Shown here: positions 3 to 10,057 of the stretch, in pieces
Position numbering within the stretch: the stretch's first letter is position 1
How the letters are laid out: every line of letters starts with the position of its first letter
Virus record (IMG/VR): IMGVR_UViG_3300042486_000817
Coordinates: 1 to 20,993 of that record
Length of the DNA stretch: 20,993 nt
Source of the DNA: a virus
Reading direction: 5' to 3' (one strand)
Notes under the pieces: generated by a model
Seen by the model: the letters and a program-made list of their open reading frames with translations, nothing else
Told to the model about the DNA's origin: nothing
Databases searched by the model: none
Made by a program: the position numbers and the translations under genes

Positions 3-638
3 AAGCAGGAGGAGATTCAAAAGATGCGCGAGAGCGGTGCGAGGGGAGGAAAGAAGCGCGCGGAAAACGCTGCAAAATCCAAGGAAAAACAGGACAGTTC
101 AAGCCTCCCTTCAAGCCCCCCTTCAAGCCCCCCTTCAAGCCCCCCTTCAACGGAAAGGAAAGGAAAGGAAGAGAAAGGAATACTCCCCCCTACCCCCCAA
201 GGGGAGGAGAGCGAGAGCGCGGAGGATTTTTATGCCGAGAACATGCCCACCGCAAACGCTCAATCGATGCTCGAACTCGAAAAGCGCGTCAGATCGCTCA
301 GGAGCGGCTGGGAGTTGCCTTTGGCATACACGGAGCAAAAACTTCTTTCGGAGGCATCACGGTGCCTTTCTGAGCTAACAGCGGCCCAATGGCAAACGAT
401 GAAGGATTACATGCACGCTCGCATTCCTGATGGAGTCCCAGCATGGCAACCTCGAAGCCGATCAAAGTTCCTTGAGAAGCCATCGGATGTTTGGACTCAC
501 GCATGCGCTTGGCGGAAGAAACAAGAGGCATCGCGCCCACCACCGAACACGATCCCGATGCCGGTGTCATCGAGGCCAACCATCAGCCGCGAGGAACTCG
601 CCGAGTTCTTCGATCCTATCAAAAAGAAGAAAATGTAA
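3..638 (+). CDS. Replication-organiser-like protein, C-terminal part (5' end outside window)
   Basis: The frame is open from base 3 with no stop upstream of the first ATG (24), so the gene probably begins outside the window; a start at ATG 24 behind an AGGAGG-like run (8-13) is possible and would give 204 residues. From that ATG the protein has a basic stretch (GARGGKKRAENAAKSK), then an SSPP repeat linker, a K/E-rich segment, and a folded-looking C-terminal half (about residues 80-180) with many Trp and Leu. A basic stretch followed by a Ser-rich low-complexity linker and a charged run is the usual tail of DUF1376/YdaU-type phage replication proteins, and the place just upstream of small terminase fits. 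This is inference from style and position; no catalytic motif is visible. The C terminus is very basic (DPIKKKKM). Confidence 0.6.
   Translation, partial: KQEEIQKMRESGARGGKKRAENAAKSKEKQDSSSLPSSPPSSPPSSPPSTERKGKEEKGILPPTPQGEESESAEDFYAENMPTANAQSMLELEKRVRSLRSGWELPLAYTEQKLLSEASRCLSELTAAQWQTMKDYMHARIPDGVPAWQPRSRSKFLEKPSDVWTHACAWRKKQEASRPPPNTIPMPVSSRPTISREELAEFFDPIKKKKM
98..150 (+). repeat. 12-bp tandem repeat coding an SSPP linker
   Basis: Four 12-bp units TTCAAGCCYCCC (98-109, 110-121, 122-133, 134-145) plus a partial TTCAA. The last three full units are identical. In the frame of the surrounding gene they read as Ser-Ser-Pro-Pro units. A purine tract of GGAAA units follows directly (about 152-179), so two simple repeats lie back to back. 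Near-identity at DNA level suggests recent slippage expansion; unit number may vary between related phages. Confidence 0.85.
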
Positions 639-692
639 AAATAGGATGAAACCTTTTGCCGATTTCAAACAAACCCCACAAATGGGATCTGA

Positions 693-1723: not shown

Positions 1724-2374
1724 ATGGGCATAACTGAGCTAGGCCAAGCCCTAGGGATCGACAAATCGGTCGTCTCGAGGCTTGTGAAGAAAGGAATGCC
1801 CACGCATTCGGTCGAGGCCGCGCAGTCATGGCGGGAAACGAATGCCAAGCCCCGCGCCAAGAGGGGACAGGCCGGAACCACGCCGCCGCCTCCCAAGGCC
1901 ACGAAGACCCAGTCGGTTGCTCAATCTGTCCAACCTACGGTCACGCTGCCGAAGATCGAGGCCCAAGCGCATGACGCGCCCGAGCCGGACGACGATGACA
2001 ACACCCCGCGCCAGTCGCTTCGGCGGGCGAGGTTGGCGGAAAAGGTCGGCTACAACGAGCTTGTCCTCTGCAAACGGAACGGCGGATCGATCGAGGACAT
2101 TCGAAAGGCCAACTCGATCTACATCGCCGCCAGGAACAACCGCCACAAAGCCGAACGCGACTTCAAGGAATGGCAACGCGCGGAGGGGATTCTGCTCTAC
2201 TTCGACGAGGCCAAGGAGATCGCCGGTCGACCGCATGTGGCCGCCAAACAAATGTTGGAAGTGATGCCGAAAAGCCTCGCGCCTCGCTTGTTCGGCCAAC
2301 CGCAAAAGGCCATCGAGGCCGCGCTTTCCGAGTGGTGTGATTCTCTGACTGAAGTCATTCGCAAAGCCCTATGA
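1724..2374 (+). CDS. Terminase small subunit (Nu1-like)
   Basis: DNA-recognition subunit of the packaging motor: it binds the packaging site and hands DNA to the large subunit. The 216-residue protein starts with a helix-turn-helix (residues 2-25, ITELGQALGIDKSVVSRLVK) followed by GMPTHSVEAAQSWRETN, the pattern of Nu1/TerS-like N-terminal domains. A Pro-rich acidic linker (about 50-95) is followed by a helical domain (100-216) that probably oligomerises and contacts TerL. The stop overlaps the TerL start as ATGA, so the two are translationally coupled. Identification rests on the HTH style, size and position directly before TerL. Confidence 0.85.
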   Translation: MGITELGQALGIDKSVVSRLVKKGMPTHSVEAAQSWRETNAKPRAKRGQAGTTPPPPKATKTQSVAQSVQPTVTLPKIEAQAHDAPEPDDDDNTPRQSLRRARLAEKVGYNELVLCKRNGGSIEDIRKANSIYIAARNNRHKAERDFKEWQRAEGILLYFDEAKEIAGRPHVAAKQMLEVMPKSLAPRLFGQPQKAIEAALSEWCDSLTEVIRKAL

Positions 2375-4080
2375 CCCCCGCCGCCGAAGCCCTGCGCGAG
2401 CACATCCGCTCGATCTATGCGCCGATCGATCGCCGGTCGGTCGTTCAGTGGTGTAGCGACGAAGTGATCCTCTCTGAGCGTCAGACCCAGATGCCGGGGA
2501 ACTTTTCAACATCCATGACGCCGTACATGAATGAGCCGCTCGAGTCTTTCGGCGATATCGATGTCACGGATATTGTGATGGTTTTTGGAACTCAGACCGG
2601 AAAAACCACAATCATACAGGGAGGAGCATCTCATCGTATTTGCAATAAACCACAACCTGCTTTGTGGGTCATGCCGACCGAAGGCCTCGCCCGATCATTT
2701 TCAGAAACGCGATGGATGCCGCTCTTTGACGATTCTCCGACGCTCGCTGCCCAAAAACCGGCCGATCGAAACCGTTTCAAGACATTAGAACAACACTTCA
2801 GCCGTTGTACCATGAACTTCGTCGGGTCCAACTCACCGGCCAACCTCGCCAGCCGCCCCGCCGGTCTGCTCTTGCTCGATGAGGTCGACAAGTTCGCGAC
2901 CGAGACCGACAAGGAAACCAGCGCCCTTCACCTCGCCGAAAACCGCACGAAATCTTTCGTCGGCGCCCTCCGCGTCAAGACCTCGACACCGACCACGCCC
3001 GAGGGACCAATCTGGAAAGAGTACCTCAAAGGCACGCAGGAAAAATTCATGCTGCCATGCCCGCATTGCGCAGAACGCATCGAGCTTTTGTGGGAGCAAG
3101 TGAAGTGGGATCGTGAGGCCAAGGCCGACGGCAAGTGGAACATGGCGCAGGTCGAAGAATCCGCGCGCTATGAATGCCAGCATTGCAAAGGCTCGATCAA
3201 CGACGGGCAGAAAATGGAAATGCTTCAGCAGGGGAAATGGCAATGCACCAATGAGTCCGCGCAAAAAGGCTTCCGCTCATTCCACCTCAACTCGCTTTAC
3301 GCACCATGGCGGTCCTGCACCTTCGGCGCGCTGGCGGTGAAGTTCCTCCGCGACTCGGAAACCCTCAACGGCCTGCAAGATTTCACCAACTCGACCATGG
3401 CTTTGCCGTGGGAGCAGGTCGAGACCAGCATCGGCGATGCTAAGATTCTCGGCCTTTCCGGCAGCTACGAAGTCGGCACCTGCCCGATCGATGAACCCGC
3501 GCATGTCGTCACCTGCGCCGATGTCGGCCAGGAGAAACAGCACTGGGTCACCACCGCCTTCGCTGCCGATGGATCATCCTATGTCTTGGACTACGGCACC
3601 ACTCTATCAGTCGAGGATCTTCTCCGTGATCCGCCACTCCGATCCTATGCTACACCCAGCGGCGGTATCGTGAAGCCCGAGTGCGGCTTGATCGACTCCG
3701 GCTTTGCGACCTTTCGCGTCTATGCCACATGCCAAGAGTCCGGCGGATTCTTTCACCCGGCAAAGGGCGCAAATGTCACCTTCGGCACGCGGATCAGCCG
3801 CACCACGATCGACAACTTTCCCGGCGTCGTGCTCTACACCTATGTCGACCACGCGATCAAGACCGAGCTCTTCATCGATCGGATCAAGGACCAGAAACCC
3901 GAGCTCAAGATCCCGAAGAAAGTCACCACCGAGTTCATCGCAGGACTGAGCGGGCAAAAGCTCGTCCCGCGCAAGACGCCGAGCGGCCAAGTCTATGTCT
4001 GGAAGGATGTCCGAGACGACCACTTCATGGACGCGCTCAAGTTGTGCCACATCGCGTGGCACATCTTGAAAAACGCTTGA
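2371..4080 (+). CDS. Terminase large subunit, GpA family
   Basis: ATPase and nuclease that cuts concatemers and drives DNA into the prohead. In 569 residues the order is: Walker A GTQTGKTT (73-80), Walker B LLLLDE (166-171), a CPHC (230-233) ... CQHC (269-272) pair that looks like a zinc-binding insertion as in GpA-type enzymes, then the nuclease half with TCADVG (381-386; D384 a likely metal ligand), LIDSGF, and a C-terminal HFMDALKLC motif. Lambda gpA is somewhat longer (641). The start overlaps the TerS stop. The last bases contain an 8-bp inverted repeat (4043-4063). It ends 3 bases from the stop of a convergent minus-strand gene. Confidence 0.95.
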   Translation: MTPAAEALREHIRSIYAPIDRRSVVQWCSDEVILSERQTQMPGNFSTSMTPYMNEPLESFGDIDVTDIVMVFGTQTGKTTIIQGGASHRICNKPQPALWVMPTEGLARSFSETRWMPLFDDSPTLAAQKPADRNRFKTLEQHFSRCTMNFVGSNSPANLASRPAGLLLLDEVDKFATETDKETSALHLAENRTKSFVGALRVKTSTPTTPEGPIWKEYLKGTQEKFMLPCPHCAERIELLWEQVKWDREAKADGKWNMAQVEESARYECQHCKGSINDGQKMEMLQQGKWQCTNESAQKGFRSFHLNSLYAPWRSCTFGALAVKFLRDSETLNGLQDFTNSTMALPWEQVETSIGDAKILGLSGSYEVGTCPIDEPAHVVTCADVGQEKQHWVTTAFAADGSSYVLDYGTTLSVEDLLRDPPLRSYATPSGGIVKPECGLIDSGFATFRVYATCQESGGFFHPAKGANVTFGTRISRTTIDNFPGVVLYTYVDHAIKTELFIDRIKDQKPELKIPKKVTTEFIAGLSGQKLVPRKTPSGQVYVWKDVRDDHFMDALKLCHIAWHILKNA

Positions 4081-4083
4081 ACA

Positions 4084-4401
4084 TCACAGCTTTGCCGCCT
4101 CTTCTTTGATAGATGTAAGGCAATACTCTCTTATGTTCTCAATGAAATCCCTTGCTTTGTCAGGGTCATGTTCGAGGAAATCATCATCAAGCCAATCGTT
4201 CCAGTAATCGTCACATTGGGTTTTTTTGAGGATTTCACTAAGTCCCTTTTTTGTTTCCTCATACCTTTCAGAAAGGTAAAGATCCACAGCTTTTTCAAAT
4301 GCTCGTAATTCTTTTTGCTGATCTCTGAGCATCGAAAGAATGTCGGAAAATCCTCCGATTAATTCTTCAGGTGTGGTTTCAATATCTTGTTTCAGTTTCA
4401 T
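4084..4401 (-). CDS. Unknown acidic helical protein in the minus-strand island
   Basis: A 105-residue protein, acidic and predicted almost wholly helical, with a WNDWLDDDFLEHDPDKARDF segment near residues 67-86. No family is recognised and no signal peptide or membrane segment is seen. Its DNA is visibly more AT-rich than the flanking terminase and portal genes and uses AT-ending codons, a sign of separate origin. It lies 11 bases downstream of the ribbon-helix-helix gene on the same strand and probably shares its transcript; the spacer is A-rich (AATAAAAAA) with no SD. A host-modifying 'moron' cargo is the simplest reading. A toxin-antitoxin pairing with its neighbour cannot be excluded. Confidence 0.65.
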   Translation of the reverse strand: MKLKQDIETTPEELIGGFSDILSMLRDQQKELRAFEKAVDLYLSERYEETKKGLSEILKKTQCDDYWNDWLDDDFLEHDPDKARDFIENIREYCLTSIKEEAAKL

Positions 4402-4412
4402 TTTTTTATTGG

Positions 4413-4595
4413 TTATAGTTCACGGAATGCTTCATCCGCCACGCTGGAAATGCTGGCGGATTTTTTTTTGGCCACGCTGCGAAGTTTTGCGTTCGCCTCA
4501 TGGGAGATCGAGAGCGCGATCGTCACGCGCGTTTTTCCTGCCGGTCGTCCTGCGCCTTCGCGAGCGCCGCCTCTGGTTTCGGTTTTTTTACTCAT
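4413..4595 (-). CDS. Ribbon-helix-helix (CopG/Arc-like) regulator
   Basis: A 60-residue protein. After a GGAREGAGRP basic turn (residues 9-18, AT-hook-like) comes a strand TRVTIALSI and two helices, HEANAKLRSVAKKK and SISSVADEAFREL, which is the ribbon-helix-helix layout. Such proteins dimerise through the strand, place it in the DNA major groove and usually repress their own operon. It heads a two-gene minus-strand unit with the 105-residue protein. Its coding DNA also forms a strong plus-direction terminator (4434-4469): the Lys-Lys-Lys run comes from the T-tract and the SASISSVAD segment from the hairpin. Likely self-regulating through the promoter at 4665-4692. Confidence 0.75.
   Translation of the reverse strand: MSKKTETRGGAREGAGRPAGKTRVTIALSISHEANAKLRSVAKKKSASISSVADEAFREL
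4434..4469 (+). terminator. Strong plus-direction intrinsic terminator inside the minus-strand regulator gene
   Basis: ATCCGCCA (4434-4441) and TGGCGGAT (4454-4461) form a perfect 8-bp stem with an extra GC/GC closing inside the loop, followed by nine T (4461-4469). This should end rightward transcription coming out of the terminase genes before the head genes, so the genes from 4997 onward would need their own transcription start. It lies fully within the coding sequence of the regulator on the other strand. Confidence 0.75.
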
Positions 4596-4664
4596 GTTCG
4601 GCGTTGATGGTGACTTGCATGGCTTGTTTGGTAGTTAGTGTTAGGCAATTCAGAAGGATTCCTA

Positions 4665-4692
4665 ATCATAGGTATTCGCGGCCCACGGTAAA
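4665..4692 (-). promoter_or_regulatory. Candidate promoter for the ribbon-helix-helix gene
   Basis: Read on the minus strand, TTTACC (plus 4687-4692) and TATGAT (plus 4665-4670) are 16 bases apart and match four and five of six sigma-70 consensus bases. The start codon of the regulator lies about 70 bases downstream. Only a sequence match. Confidence 0.35.
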
Positions 4693-4693
4693 T

Positions 4694-4855
4694 TCAGCCC
4701 CACATTTCGGCGAGCTTGGCCATTCCCTCGTTGTACTCGCGTTCCTCGGCTTTCGTCATTTCGATGGTGTGGATTTCATTGGTTCCACAGTCATCCATGG
4801 CGGAAGCGATCGGAACTTGTACGGTGTTGTCGGTGGTAGTGCGGATTGTTTTCAT
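4694..4855 (-). CDS. Small hypothetical protein, first gene of the minus-strand island
   Basis: A 53-residue protein beginning MKTIRTTTDNTVQVP and ending in an acidic amphipathic helix (EMTKAEEREYNEGMAKLAEMWG). A longer reading from ATG 4900 exists, but that codon would overlap the -10 box of the best promoter, so ATG 4855 is preferred. It lies about 100 bases upstream of the ribbon-helix-helix gene on the same strand. No family is recognised. The short length leaves doubt, but the promoter and clean reading frame support it. Confidence 0.5.
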   Translation of the reverse strand: MKTIRTTTDNTVQVPIASAMDDCGTNEIHTIEMTKAEEREYNEGMAKLAEMWG

Positions 4856-4957: not shown

Positions 4958-4999
4958 CGGGTTGAAAACCCGCCATTTTGACACCCGCCCGTCGGCGTG
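4958..4999 (+). promoter_or_regulatory. Hairpin plus TTTTGACAC start element, copy 1
   Basis: A perfect 6-bp hairpin CGGGTT-GAA-AACCCG (4958-4972) is followed by ATTTTGACAC (4975-4984), then 12 bases, then GTG (4997). A small second hairpin CGCC/GGCG (4986-4989, 4994-4997) ends in the G of the start codon. No SD is present. The start context CGTGAGCGAA is shared with the portal gene. Confidence 0.6.
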
Positions 5000-5272
5000 A
5001 GCGAATCCATGAAAATCAGCGGCGTAAAGTCCTACCTGCGCCGGACCAAGACCAACGAAGAGCTAGAAGCCTTGGCCGATACCGTCTTTTCAAGCGCCAC
5101 CGAGGAAGTCGTCATCACCAGCATCGGCACCGAGGGCTCAAGCTCGTCGGGGCAGGTGAGTTTCCCCAAGTGGCTTTTGCTCCAAGCTATCGAGGAATTA
5201 CTCACCGACGGAGGCCGTGAGCGTCAGCTTGCCTCGATCGTCGACCGCTCGCGCTACTCATCGCCGCTTTGA
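4997..5272 (+). CDS. Head-tail joining protein in the gpW position
   Basis: A 91-residue protein from GTG 4997, or 87 from ATG 5009 (MKISGVKSYLRRTKTNEELE). An N-terminal helix (NEELEALADTVFSSA) is followed by a short strand region (EVVITSIGTEGSSSSGQVSF) and a helix (PKWLLLQAIEELLTDGG). A helix, hairpin and helix of this size directly before the portal gene matches the lambda W gene, whose product seals the filled head and accepts the tail. Identity is inferred from position and layout, not from a motif. The GTG is preferred because the upstream element keeps its usual 12-base spacing. Confidence 0.6.
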   Translation: MSESMKISGVKSYLRRTKTNEELEALADTVFSSATEEVVITSIGTEGSSSSGQVSFPKWLLLQAIEELLTDGGRERQLASIVDRSRYSSPL

Positions 5273-5297
5273 TTTTGACACCCCGAAATCAATCGTG
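5269..5297 (+). promoter_or_regulatory. TTTTGACAC start element, copy 2 (portal)
   Basis: ATTTTGACAC (5272-5281) begins at the stop codon of the upstream gene and lies 13 bases before GTG 5295. TTGATTT (5269-5275) pairs perfectly with AAATCAA (5286-5292), enclosing TGACACCCCG in the loop, with the start codon just after the 3' arm. The sequence CGTGAGCGAA around the start is the same as in copy 1. Confidence 0.6.
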
Positions 5298-6719
5298 AGC
5301 GAAATCAAAAAATCAAACCGCGGCGGCAAGCGCGCCGGAGCCGGACGCCCGAAGAAAAACGCCACGCCCAAGGCAGCTGCCTTTGAAGCTGCCGAGCACT
5401 CAATCAACCGAGGCCTCGTCATCCTCAACACCGTCGAACCCCGCCGCGAGCTCCCCGCGCAGACTCGCCTCGAGCTACTGAAGAAAGCCCGCTGGCTTTA
5501 CAACAATGTCGGCGTCGCGGCATACCTCATCGAGCACCTTGCCCAGCGTGCCGTCGGCACCGGCATCGTCCCCAAGGCCCGCACCGCGAATGCCGAGTGG
5601 AACCGCATTGCCGAGCGTGCGTTCGAGGATCGCGCCTGCGCTGAGGCATGGGCATTCGACGCATCCTCACAGGTCAACTTCTACGGCGCCCAATCCCTCA
5701 TCCTCCGACAAGTCGCCTGCGATGGTGATTTCTTCGCGCAGTTCCTCACCACCCAGACCGGCGGCGCACGCGTCCGCTTCATCGGCGGCGAGGCCGTCGG
5801 ATCAACTGCCGATTCATCCGACCGCTCGTTCGACGGCGTGCTACTCGATCAGTTCGGTGCGCCCATATCCTACCGCGTTATTACGGACCGCGCGAATGGC
5901 AAGTACACCGATGTCCCAGCGCAGGATATGCTCCACTTTCGGCACATCCGCCGGGCAGGCTACCCACGCGGCGCGTCATGGCTGCACAACGCAGCGATCA
6001 ACCTGCAAGACCTCTCGGAGATTCTCTCCTACACCAAGGGCGCATTCAAAGCAGGCGCGCAGATTGGCTTTTCGATCACCAGTAATGAAGCCGCCAAGAT
6101 CGGCCTCGGCGCGAAAATCACCACCAGCGAAGGCGAAGACCTCAGCACCGAGCGCCTCTACAACGGCACTTTGATCCCCAAGCTCAAGCCGGGCGAGTCG
6201 ATCCAGAGTTTCAAAAACGAACATCCCGGCCAGAGCTTCGAGCCGTTCGTCCGCTATGTGATTTCCGAAGTCGCGCGCGGCATCGGCCTGCCACCGGAGG
6301 CGCTCATGATCTTCGTCGGCGCGAGTGGCACCGAGTTTCGCGGTCTGCTCGAAGTCGCGCAGAATTTCCTCGAGCGCCTGCAACAAATGCTGGTCGATCA
6401 ATTCTGCCGTCCGTTTTGGAAATTCTGGATCTATCAAGAGATCCAAGCCGGTCGCCTGCCATACCCCGGCGACGATTGGTGGAGATGCGAGTTTATCCCG
6501 CCGAAGAAAATCACGGTCGACAACGGACGCGATGGCCGCCTGTACAGCGACTTGATGGATAAGGGCTACATGTCGTGGGAGCGCTACTGCAACCTCCACG
6601 GCCTCGATGCCGAAGCCGAGGAGGACGACATCCTGCAAACCTACCTGCGCCGCAAAGCGAAGTGCGATCAACTCGGCCTCGAGGTTGGCGAGGTTTTCCC
6701 AAGCCAAGGCACCGTCTGA
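5295..6719 (+). CDS. Portal protein, lambda family
   Basis: Dodecameric ring at the head vertex through which DNA enters and leaves; partner of terminase and the connector. The 474-residue protein has features of the lambda-type portal family: an N-terminal ARWLYNNVGVAAYLIEHLAQRAVGTGI-like block, QVACDGDFFAQFL, the DMLHFRHIRRAGYPRGASWL region, a long central helical stem (LQDLSEILSYTKGAFKAGAQ) and a C-terminal LPPEALMIFVGASGTEFRG segment. Lambda gpB is 533 residues. GTG 5295 is chosen because no ATG lies near and the start element is placed properly; a GTG at 5217 would overlap the upstream gene heavily. The N terminus carries RGGKRAGAGRPKK, resembling the turn in the ribbon-helix-helix protein. 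Confidence 0.92.
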   Translation: MSEIKKSNRGGKRAGAGRPKKNATPKAAAFEAAEHSINRGLVILNTVEPRRELPAQTRLELLKKARWLYNNVGVAAYLIEHLAQRAVGTGIVPKARTANAEWNRIAERAFEDRACAEAWAFDASSQVNFYGAQSLILRQVACDGDFFAQFLTTQTGGARVRFIGGEAVGSTADSSDRSFDGVLLDQFGAPISYRVITDRANGKYTDVPAQDMLHFRHIRRAGYPRGASWLHNAAINLQDLSEILSYTKGAFKAGAQIGFSITSNEAAKIGLGAKITTSEGEDLSTERLYNGTLIPKLKPGESIQSFKNEHPGQSFEPFVRYVISEVARGIGLPPEALMIFVGASGTEFRGLLEVAQNFLERLQQMLVDQFCRPFWKFWIYQEIQAGRLPYPGDDWWRCEFIPPKKITVDNGRDGRLYSDLMDKGYMSWERYCNLHGLDAEAEEDDILQTYLRRKAKCDQLGLEVGEVFPSQGTV

Positions 6720-8790: not shown

Positions 8791-8831
8791 AACTCCCCAT
8801 CGGCCAAGCGTCGGTGGGGAGTTCTTCTTTT
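8791..8831 (+). terminator. Intrinsic terminator after the capsid gene
   Basis: AACTCCCCA (8791-8799) pairs with TGGGGAGTT (8815-8823), and the stem continues inward with GU/CG pairs to about 13 bp; CTTCTTTTG follows. The T-rich tail is also the start of the TTTTGACAT element of the next gene. Confidence 0.8.
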
Positions 8832-9628: not shown

Positions 9629-10000
9629 ATGCCCGCCACCATCTACAAAGCATCGTCCGTCTCTTCAGTTGAGTTCGGCATCACCAACGAGACCGGCATC
9701 TTGCTCAGCTCGTTTTCGCGCAATGTCACCGCCAACAAGTCCGAGCTTCGCGACGCGGAAGGTGAAGTTGTCGCCGTCGCTATCACCGGCAAGCAAGCCG
9801 AGATCACCCTCGAAGGCACGCTGAACGGCAGCGCGACGATGCAAGTCGGCAACCTGCTCACACTGTCCAACGACATCGACAAGTACGGCCTCGCAGACGG
9901 CACCGTGATCGTCAACTCGGTGCAGGAGAAGTCTGCCGCCGGTGAGTTCAAGACCATCTCGGTCAGCGCCACTCAGTACAGCGCGACGATGGAGGACTAA
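9629..10000 (+). CDS. Major tail (tube) protein candidate
   Basis: A 123-residue beta-rich protein from ATG 9629 (MPATIYKASSVSSVEFG); GTG 9608 would add seven residues and starts inside a hairpin. Alternating strands (EVVAVAITGKQAEITLEGTLNG, TMQVGNLLTLS, GTVIVNSVQEKSAAGEFKTISVSATQY) resemble small tail-tube subunits, which stack as hexamer rings around the tape measure. The position after the tail terminator and before the G/GT pair is that of lambda V. It has its own upstream hairpin element and a strong downstream terminator, fitting a highly expressed virion protein. No diagnostic motif. Confidence 0.6.
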   Translation: MPATIYKASSVSSVEFGITNETGILLSSFSRNVTANKSELRDAEGEVVAVAITGKQAEITLEGTLNGSATMQVGNLLTLSNDIDKYGLADGTVIVNSVQEKSAAGEFKTISVSATQYSATMED

Positions 10001-10025: not shown

Positions 10026-10057
10026 GGCTCCCCGGCTAATGGGAGCCAATTTTTTTA
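10026..10057 (+). terminator. Intrinsic terminator after the tube gene
   Basis: GGCTCCC (10026-10032) and GGGAGCC (10041-10047) form a perfect 7-bp stem with an 8-base loop, followed by AA and seven T (10050-10056). The T-run continues into ACACATT and ATG 10064, so the T-run and ACAC tail sit directly at the next start, like a shortened version of the TTTTGACAC element. Confidence 0.85.

Follow-up and report, generated by a model that had tools for sequence, protein, structure and literature searches.

A rightward intrinsic terminator-like element behind the terminase genes of a phage group, coded within an antisense gene in part of its members

In a 20,993-base IMG/VR phage record, the whole of which was analyzed here and is called the window, the DNA at 4434-4469 is very probably a rightward intrinsic terminator that would end the terS-terL transcription unit and that, in part of the phage population, is coded within a gene of a leftward cassette, with the head genes restarted at a TTTTGACAC element or reached by read-through or antitermination. 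It had been proposed in an earlier note that this DNA serves both as minus-strand code for a ribbon-helix-helix protein and as a rightward terminator dividing the terminase from the head genes. As judged from sequence, this dual use is supported by a structure that is conserved in 14/16 related loci carrying the gene and in 18/18 related loci lacking it.

Structure and coding context of the element

The plus strand of the window encodes the terminase subunits, a portal protein, a head protease, and a major head protein (weak match), and a block of three minus-strand ORFs (105, 60, and 52 aa) separates terL from g91 and the portal gene (Table 1). The 105-aa ORF was found only in the window and in three very close relatives (L002, L003, and L004), and its presence widens the distance between the terL stop and the terminator from about 37 nt to 354 nt. 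No DNA similarity to the window was found in the annotated phage collection, and a TerL search of bacterial genomes gave no relative that would point to the phage host.

Table 1. Features of the window around the terminator-like element
Feature	Position	Strand	Remark
Small terminase subunit	1724-2374	+	Upstream of terL, same unit
terL, large terminase subunit, GpA type	2371-4080	+	Transcript that the terminator would end
105-aa ORF of unknown function	4084-4401	-	AT-rich, 37% GC vs 55%
60-aa ribbon-helix-helix-like protein gene	4413-4595	-	Residues KKKSASISSVAD coded by terminator DNA
Intrinsic-terminator-like element	4434-4469	+	Hairpin and T9; stand-alone homologs in relatives
52-aa ORF	4694-4852	-	Site of DNA-ligase-like gene in most gene-bearing relatives
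Conserved TTTTGACAC element and short leader before g91 start	4976-4996	+	Possible restart signal
g91, conserved small protein preceding portal gene	4997-5272	+	First post-terminator gene in cassette-free relatives
Portal protein	5217-6719	+	Likely start GTG 5295, behind second TTTTGACAC element

The element reads ATCCGCCA-CGCTGGAAATGC-TGGCGGAT on the plus strand, followed by T. Its outer stem is a perfect 8-bp helix (4434-4441 paired with 4454-4461; 5/8 pairs G-C), beyond which a 1-nt bulge leads to an inner helix of two G-C pairs (4443-4444/4452-4453) and a 7-nt loop. The T9 run occupies 4461-4469, the T at 4461 doubling as the last base of the stem; the 8-bp perfect stem and nine T of the earlier note were exact to the base. 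The whole hairpin and T-run fall within the opposite-strand coding sequence, and the residues KKKSASISSVAD, which had correctly been assigned to this DNA, are its minus-strand reading (AAA AAA AAA at 4461-4469; GAT, Asp, at 4434-4436). The element thus joins a GC-rich hairpin to a U-tract directly 3' of it and lies downstream of a co-directional gene (terL), as is characteristic of intrinsic terminators, and its structure has been kept through compensatory change (two pairs between two versions; one haplotype weakened), as described below. A second, weaker hairpin with T5 is present in the same ribbon-helix-helix gene at 4514-4530 (+), and its T tract is lost in relatives.

The bare hairpin folds at -15.3 kcal/mol, and at -15.9 kcal/mol with its flanks (z = -2.0); since 11/200 shuffles were equally good, the hairpin by itself is moderately unusual. 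Its combination with the T-run is rarer: 4434-4469 is the single case in the window of a run of at least eight T adjoining a hairpin of -12 kcal/mol or better, with 0.04 expected per dinucleotide-shuffled 21-kb window, both strands included. When the 60-aa protein was recoded synonymously according to the codon usage of the phage, 2.7% of the recodings yielded such a terminator, and 0.7% yielded one of -15 kcal/mol or better. Because of these frequencies the site alone is suggestive, and the case rests on the relatives.

The 60-aa protein is likely of the ribbon-helix-helix type, although this assignment rests on weak scores. The AlphaFold2 monomer model contained helices at residues 32-45 and 49-59 and no strand (mean pLDDT 76), and almost all of the top Foldseek matches were to ribbon-helix-helix proteins (Arc, CopG, and antitoxins), at weak E-values (0.5 or higher). 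The protein matched a PHROG Arc-like family weakly (E = 0.0098), and its homolog in L058 matched RHH_1 with E = 0.0048, below the curated cut-off. The cassette of most gene-bearing relatives exceeds that of the window by about 1.1 kb. An ATP-dependent DNA-ligase-like gene (Pfam E = 4.7e-9) lies beside the ribbon-helix-helix gene at 3711-4694 (-) of L021, where the window has a short ORF. No convincing minus-direction terminator was found for the cassette, the best candidate, with four T, being inside terL at about 3959.

The terminator in relatives with and without the antisense gene

The comparison covered 34 IMG/VR loci belonging to this phage group (TerL identity of 92% or more). A hairpin and T-run of this family follows terL in all 34 (18 stand-alone, 14 intact in the gene, and 2 weakened in the gene), although these locus counts are not independent, given the close kinship and the recombination among most of the sequences compared. 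With the 60-aa protein as query, 15 gene-bearing loci of the group (88-100% identical) were retrieved, and the TerL search added L052 to make 16. Fourteen of these retain the stem unaltered, with T8 or T9 (the minus-strand A-run is A8 in L014-L016 and L052). In the haplotype shared by L050 and L051, two synonymous changes cut the stem to 6 bp and -5.9 kcal/mol, showing that the constraint on the terminator is not absolute. These are the sole synonymous changes in the stem, so that the codon-neutral changes preserving it that the earlier note had suggested looking for were not found within the gene. Because most gene-bearing relatives lack the 105-aa ORF, and their gene is directly convergent with terL, the terminator lies 36-38 nt past the terL stop in 13/16; it lies 354-355 nt past it in the three that have this ORF. 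An exact-pattern search for TGGCGGATTTTTTTT matched 102 stretches, with terL copies of this phage group among them.

Within the gene, the terminator codons are less variable than the preceding codons (3/12 vs 27/40, Fisher p = 0.017), also when synonymous variation only is counted (p = 0.05), but these values are soft because of recombination and shared ancestry, Fisher tests ignoring kinship. The TRVTIALSI block of the same gene is nearly as invariant as the terminator codons.

In the 18 loci of the group from which the antisense gene is absent, g91 begins about 90-190 nt after terL, and the gap contains CACCCACCACGCGGAAACGCYGGTGGGTTTTTT or near variants of it in 18/18, 31-37 nt past the terL stop. 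The forms in L046 and L024 fold at -19.0 and -16.3 kcal/mol, respectively. The stand-alone and gene-coded terminators align with a single 1-nt gap, which falls in the loop, and 2/8 outer stem pairs are changed on both sides between the versions (T-A to C-G, and G-C to A-T). Counted on the RNA strand, 2/10 pairs are changed on both sides, and 92.9% of the cells are paired. The covariation score was 0.200 vs 0.094 +/- 0.030 for shuffles (0/500 reached it), and slid partners gave no more than 0.143; the result derives from two base pairs and amounts to a single contrast of the two versions. A pattern search for the gene-free form gave 19 stretches, nearly all on contigs already among the terL or g91 search results. 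Three gene-free loci (L025, L030, and L044) have a left flank as in the gene-bearing phages, including the codons of the protein's last residues. Just past the terL stop, L025 and L021 share an imperfect inverted repeat, ACTgGTAAGC-AGC-GCTTACaAGT, which overlaps the stop codon of the ribbon-helix-helix gene and is possibly an operator.

Because the same stop signal is kept by relatives without the gene, we consider that the signal itself is maintained and is not due to chance. A coincidence of coding, in which A9 and an inverted repeat would be chance by-products of a lysine run and an alanine/serine-rich helix, with no plus-strand function, would agree with the 2.7% of recodings giving a comparable structure and with the silent breaking of the stem in L050 and L051. 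It is nevertheless improbable, since 18/18 relatives that do not code the protein carry a homologous terminator whose stem differs by compensatory changes, and the hairpin is missing from distant homologs of the protein.

These distant homologs came from 46 further loci, with TerL 71-83% identical, in which no hairpin with a T-run was found within 120 nt of the terL stop (using a narrow length grid); in 2/46 there are as many as six consecutive T within 150 nt of the stop. Two of the 46, L057 and L058, carry a homologous gene (42-43% identity) at the same antisense place. Their proteins align gap-free through the terminator-coded part, and no hairpin or T-run was found in the equivalent region of the genes. 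The earlier note had treated the absence of a stem from homologous genes as evidence against its proposal. Within the group the stem and T-run are present (14/16 genes, as well as all 18 gene-free loci), and in L057 and L058 the stem is absent, showing that the protein does not need the terminator and that the terminator is no property of the protein family. As gene-free loci keep the terminator and L057 and L058 keep the protein alone, neither requires the other.

In our terL tree, in which several nodes have modest support, gene-bearing and gene-free phages are interleaved, and the cassette has therefore probably been gained or lost repeatedly, with the terminator kept throughout. It is conceivable, and we suggest it tentatively, that the terminator arose inside the end of the ribbon-helix-helix gene and outlived it as a stand-alone signal, or that the reading frame of the gene grew across a terminator already in place. 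If true in either direction, a C-terminal helix and a signal ending an operon would have been converted one into the other within a population of recombining phages.

Such exchange raises the question of whether the block is mainly a recombination junction, an island of homology for cassette swapping whose stem would owe its persistence to exchange rather than to selection for termination. The similarity between gene-bearing groups does end abruptly at the stem (the tail is EAFREL in the window vs ELFRDL), two left flanks occur among the gene-free loci (L025, L030, and L044 having the gene-bearing one without the gene), and the terL tree points to repeated exchange. We judge this quite improbable as the main explanation, because exchange does not account for the paired compensatory changes and the conserved T-run of 6-9, and because both versions stand just past a stop codon, as is typical of terminators. 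The two ideas are compatible.

Proposed transcription of the terminase and head genes

In the proposed mechanism, RNA polymerase arriving from terL would stop at 4434-4469 and the terS-terL transcript would end there. Part of the population has the leftward cassette (the ribbon-helix-helix gene, usually with the ATP-dependent DNA-ligase-like gene) between the terminator and the head genes. There the terminator complement supplies codons close to the end of the ribbon-helix-helix gene, and termination would spare the cassette antisense transcription from terL. The head genes would be started anew at TTTTGACAC before 4997 or be transcribed through read-through or antitermination. This account of termination in the cell, its efficiency, the site of restart, and the reason why the overlap has been kept is drawn from DNA comparison.

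A new start before 4997 is plausible, given the conserved TTTTGACAC element at that point. The element recurs before gene starts in the window (4976, 5273, 6722, 8828, 9592, and 16733, all +), and it or a near form of it precedes g91 in 27/27 distinct distant upstream regions. In the window and L055-L100, TTTGACA occurs in 98 sense vs 3 antisense copies, 82 of which sit 13-16 nt before an ORF start, many of the loci counted being related and not independent. We do not call the TTTTGACAC element a promoter because no obvious -10 box was found with it. Between 4081 and 4434 the plus strand has one promoter-like match (9 of 12, at 4157), and such matches are no more frequent across the window than in shuffles. 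Intergenic stretches of the CTCTGTGTCCTCTGTGCTCTCTGTGGTTAA type were seen upstream of g91 in L060, L072, L098, and many of the distant relatives L234-L278.

Other strong plus-strand terminators are predicted at 8791-8823, after the major capsid gene, and at 10026-10047, after an ORF ending at 10000. Both are conserved in most relatives whose sequence covers them, and each is followed by a TTTTGACAC-type element (one mismatch each) and a gene.

Two further explanations concern the minus strand. A bidirectional terminator common to terL and the ribbon-helix-helix gene would suit two genes that are convergent and nearly abutting in most gene-bearing relatives, and such terminators between convergent genes are common (PMC7566282). 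We rejected this idea as very improbable because the stem is followed by GAAGC in the minus direction, leaving a T-run on one strand only, and because the stem lies inside the minus-strand gene ahead of its stop codon, so that termination in that direction would truncate the ribbon-helix-helix mRNA. A slippery or transcriptional-slippage site leading to a frameshifted C-terminus, for which A9 directly upstream of the stem in the minus-strand mRNA might be taken, was also rejected and deserves almost no credence, since the shifted frames yield short tails (IRQHFQRGG and PPAFPAWRMKHSVNYNQ), the stem starts within the A-run with zero spacer, the run is A8 and not A9 in L014-L016 and L052, and gene-free relatives keep the hairpin and T-run.

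Significance and comparison with known systems

A predicted terminator that would end the terminase unit and that in some phages lies within an opposing gene offers a natural comparison, the same terminator at the same place being available in a gene-free and a gene-coded form, and with it a direct test of how far an overlapping transcription signal can bend the protein code. It would also show a route by which a phage can gain a convergent gene in a packed late operon with the operon boundary intact. For annotation, it is a warning that terminators within opposite-strand genes should not be dismissed.

The cassette resembles phage morons in that accessory genes stand between structural genes and vary in presence among close relatives. 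A moron is usually equipped with a terminator acting in its own direction, whereas the terminator described here faces the opposite way and belongs to the host operon.

In the noncontiguous operon or excludon, an oppositely oriented gene lies within an operon of co-directional genes (PMC7154746), and an opposite gene is likewise interposed here; however, the terminator precedes most of the interposed gene and would prevent an overlapping transcript rather than make it. Term-seq in Zymomonas mobilis identified bidirectional intrinsic terminators at the junctions of convergent genes (PMC7566282). The element at 4434-4469 is likewise located where convergent genes meet, but it has no T-run on the opposite strand and lies inside a coding sequence, not between genes.

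The closest likeness is to the tO terminator of phage lambda, which ends the OOP RNA inside the cII coding sequence on the opposite strand (PMC5869508). In the lambda sequence used for comparison (J02459; locus L297), the tO hairpin and T-run lie on the minus strand at 630-603, and cII is at 361-654 (+). In both cases a phage intrinsic terminator (a predicted one here) sits entirely in the 3' portion of a coding sequence, that of an oppositely read DNA-binding regulator (a putative one here). Since tO within cII has the same geometry, the arrangement is not new. Whereas the RNA ended by tO is a short antisense transcript from a promoter of its own, the element at 4434-4469 would end a long terminase unit, and it is replaced by a stand-alone homolog in related phages. 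The present case adds that gene-coded and stand-alone forms alternate within one phage group, and that the predicted terminator is positioned at a major operon boundary.
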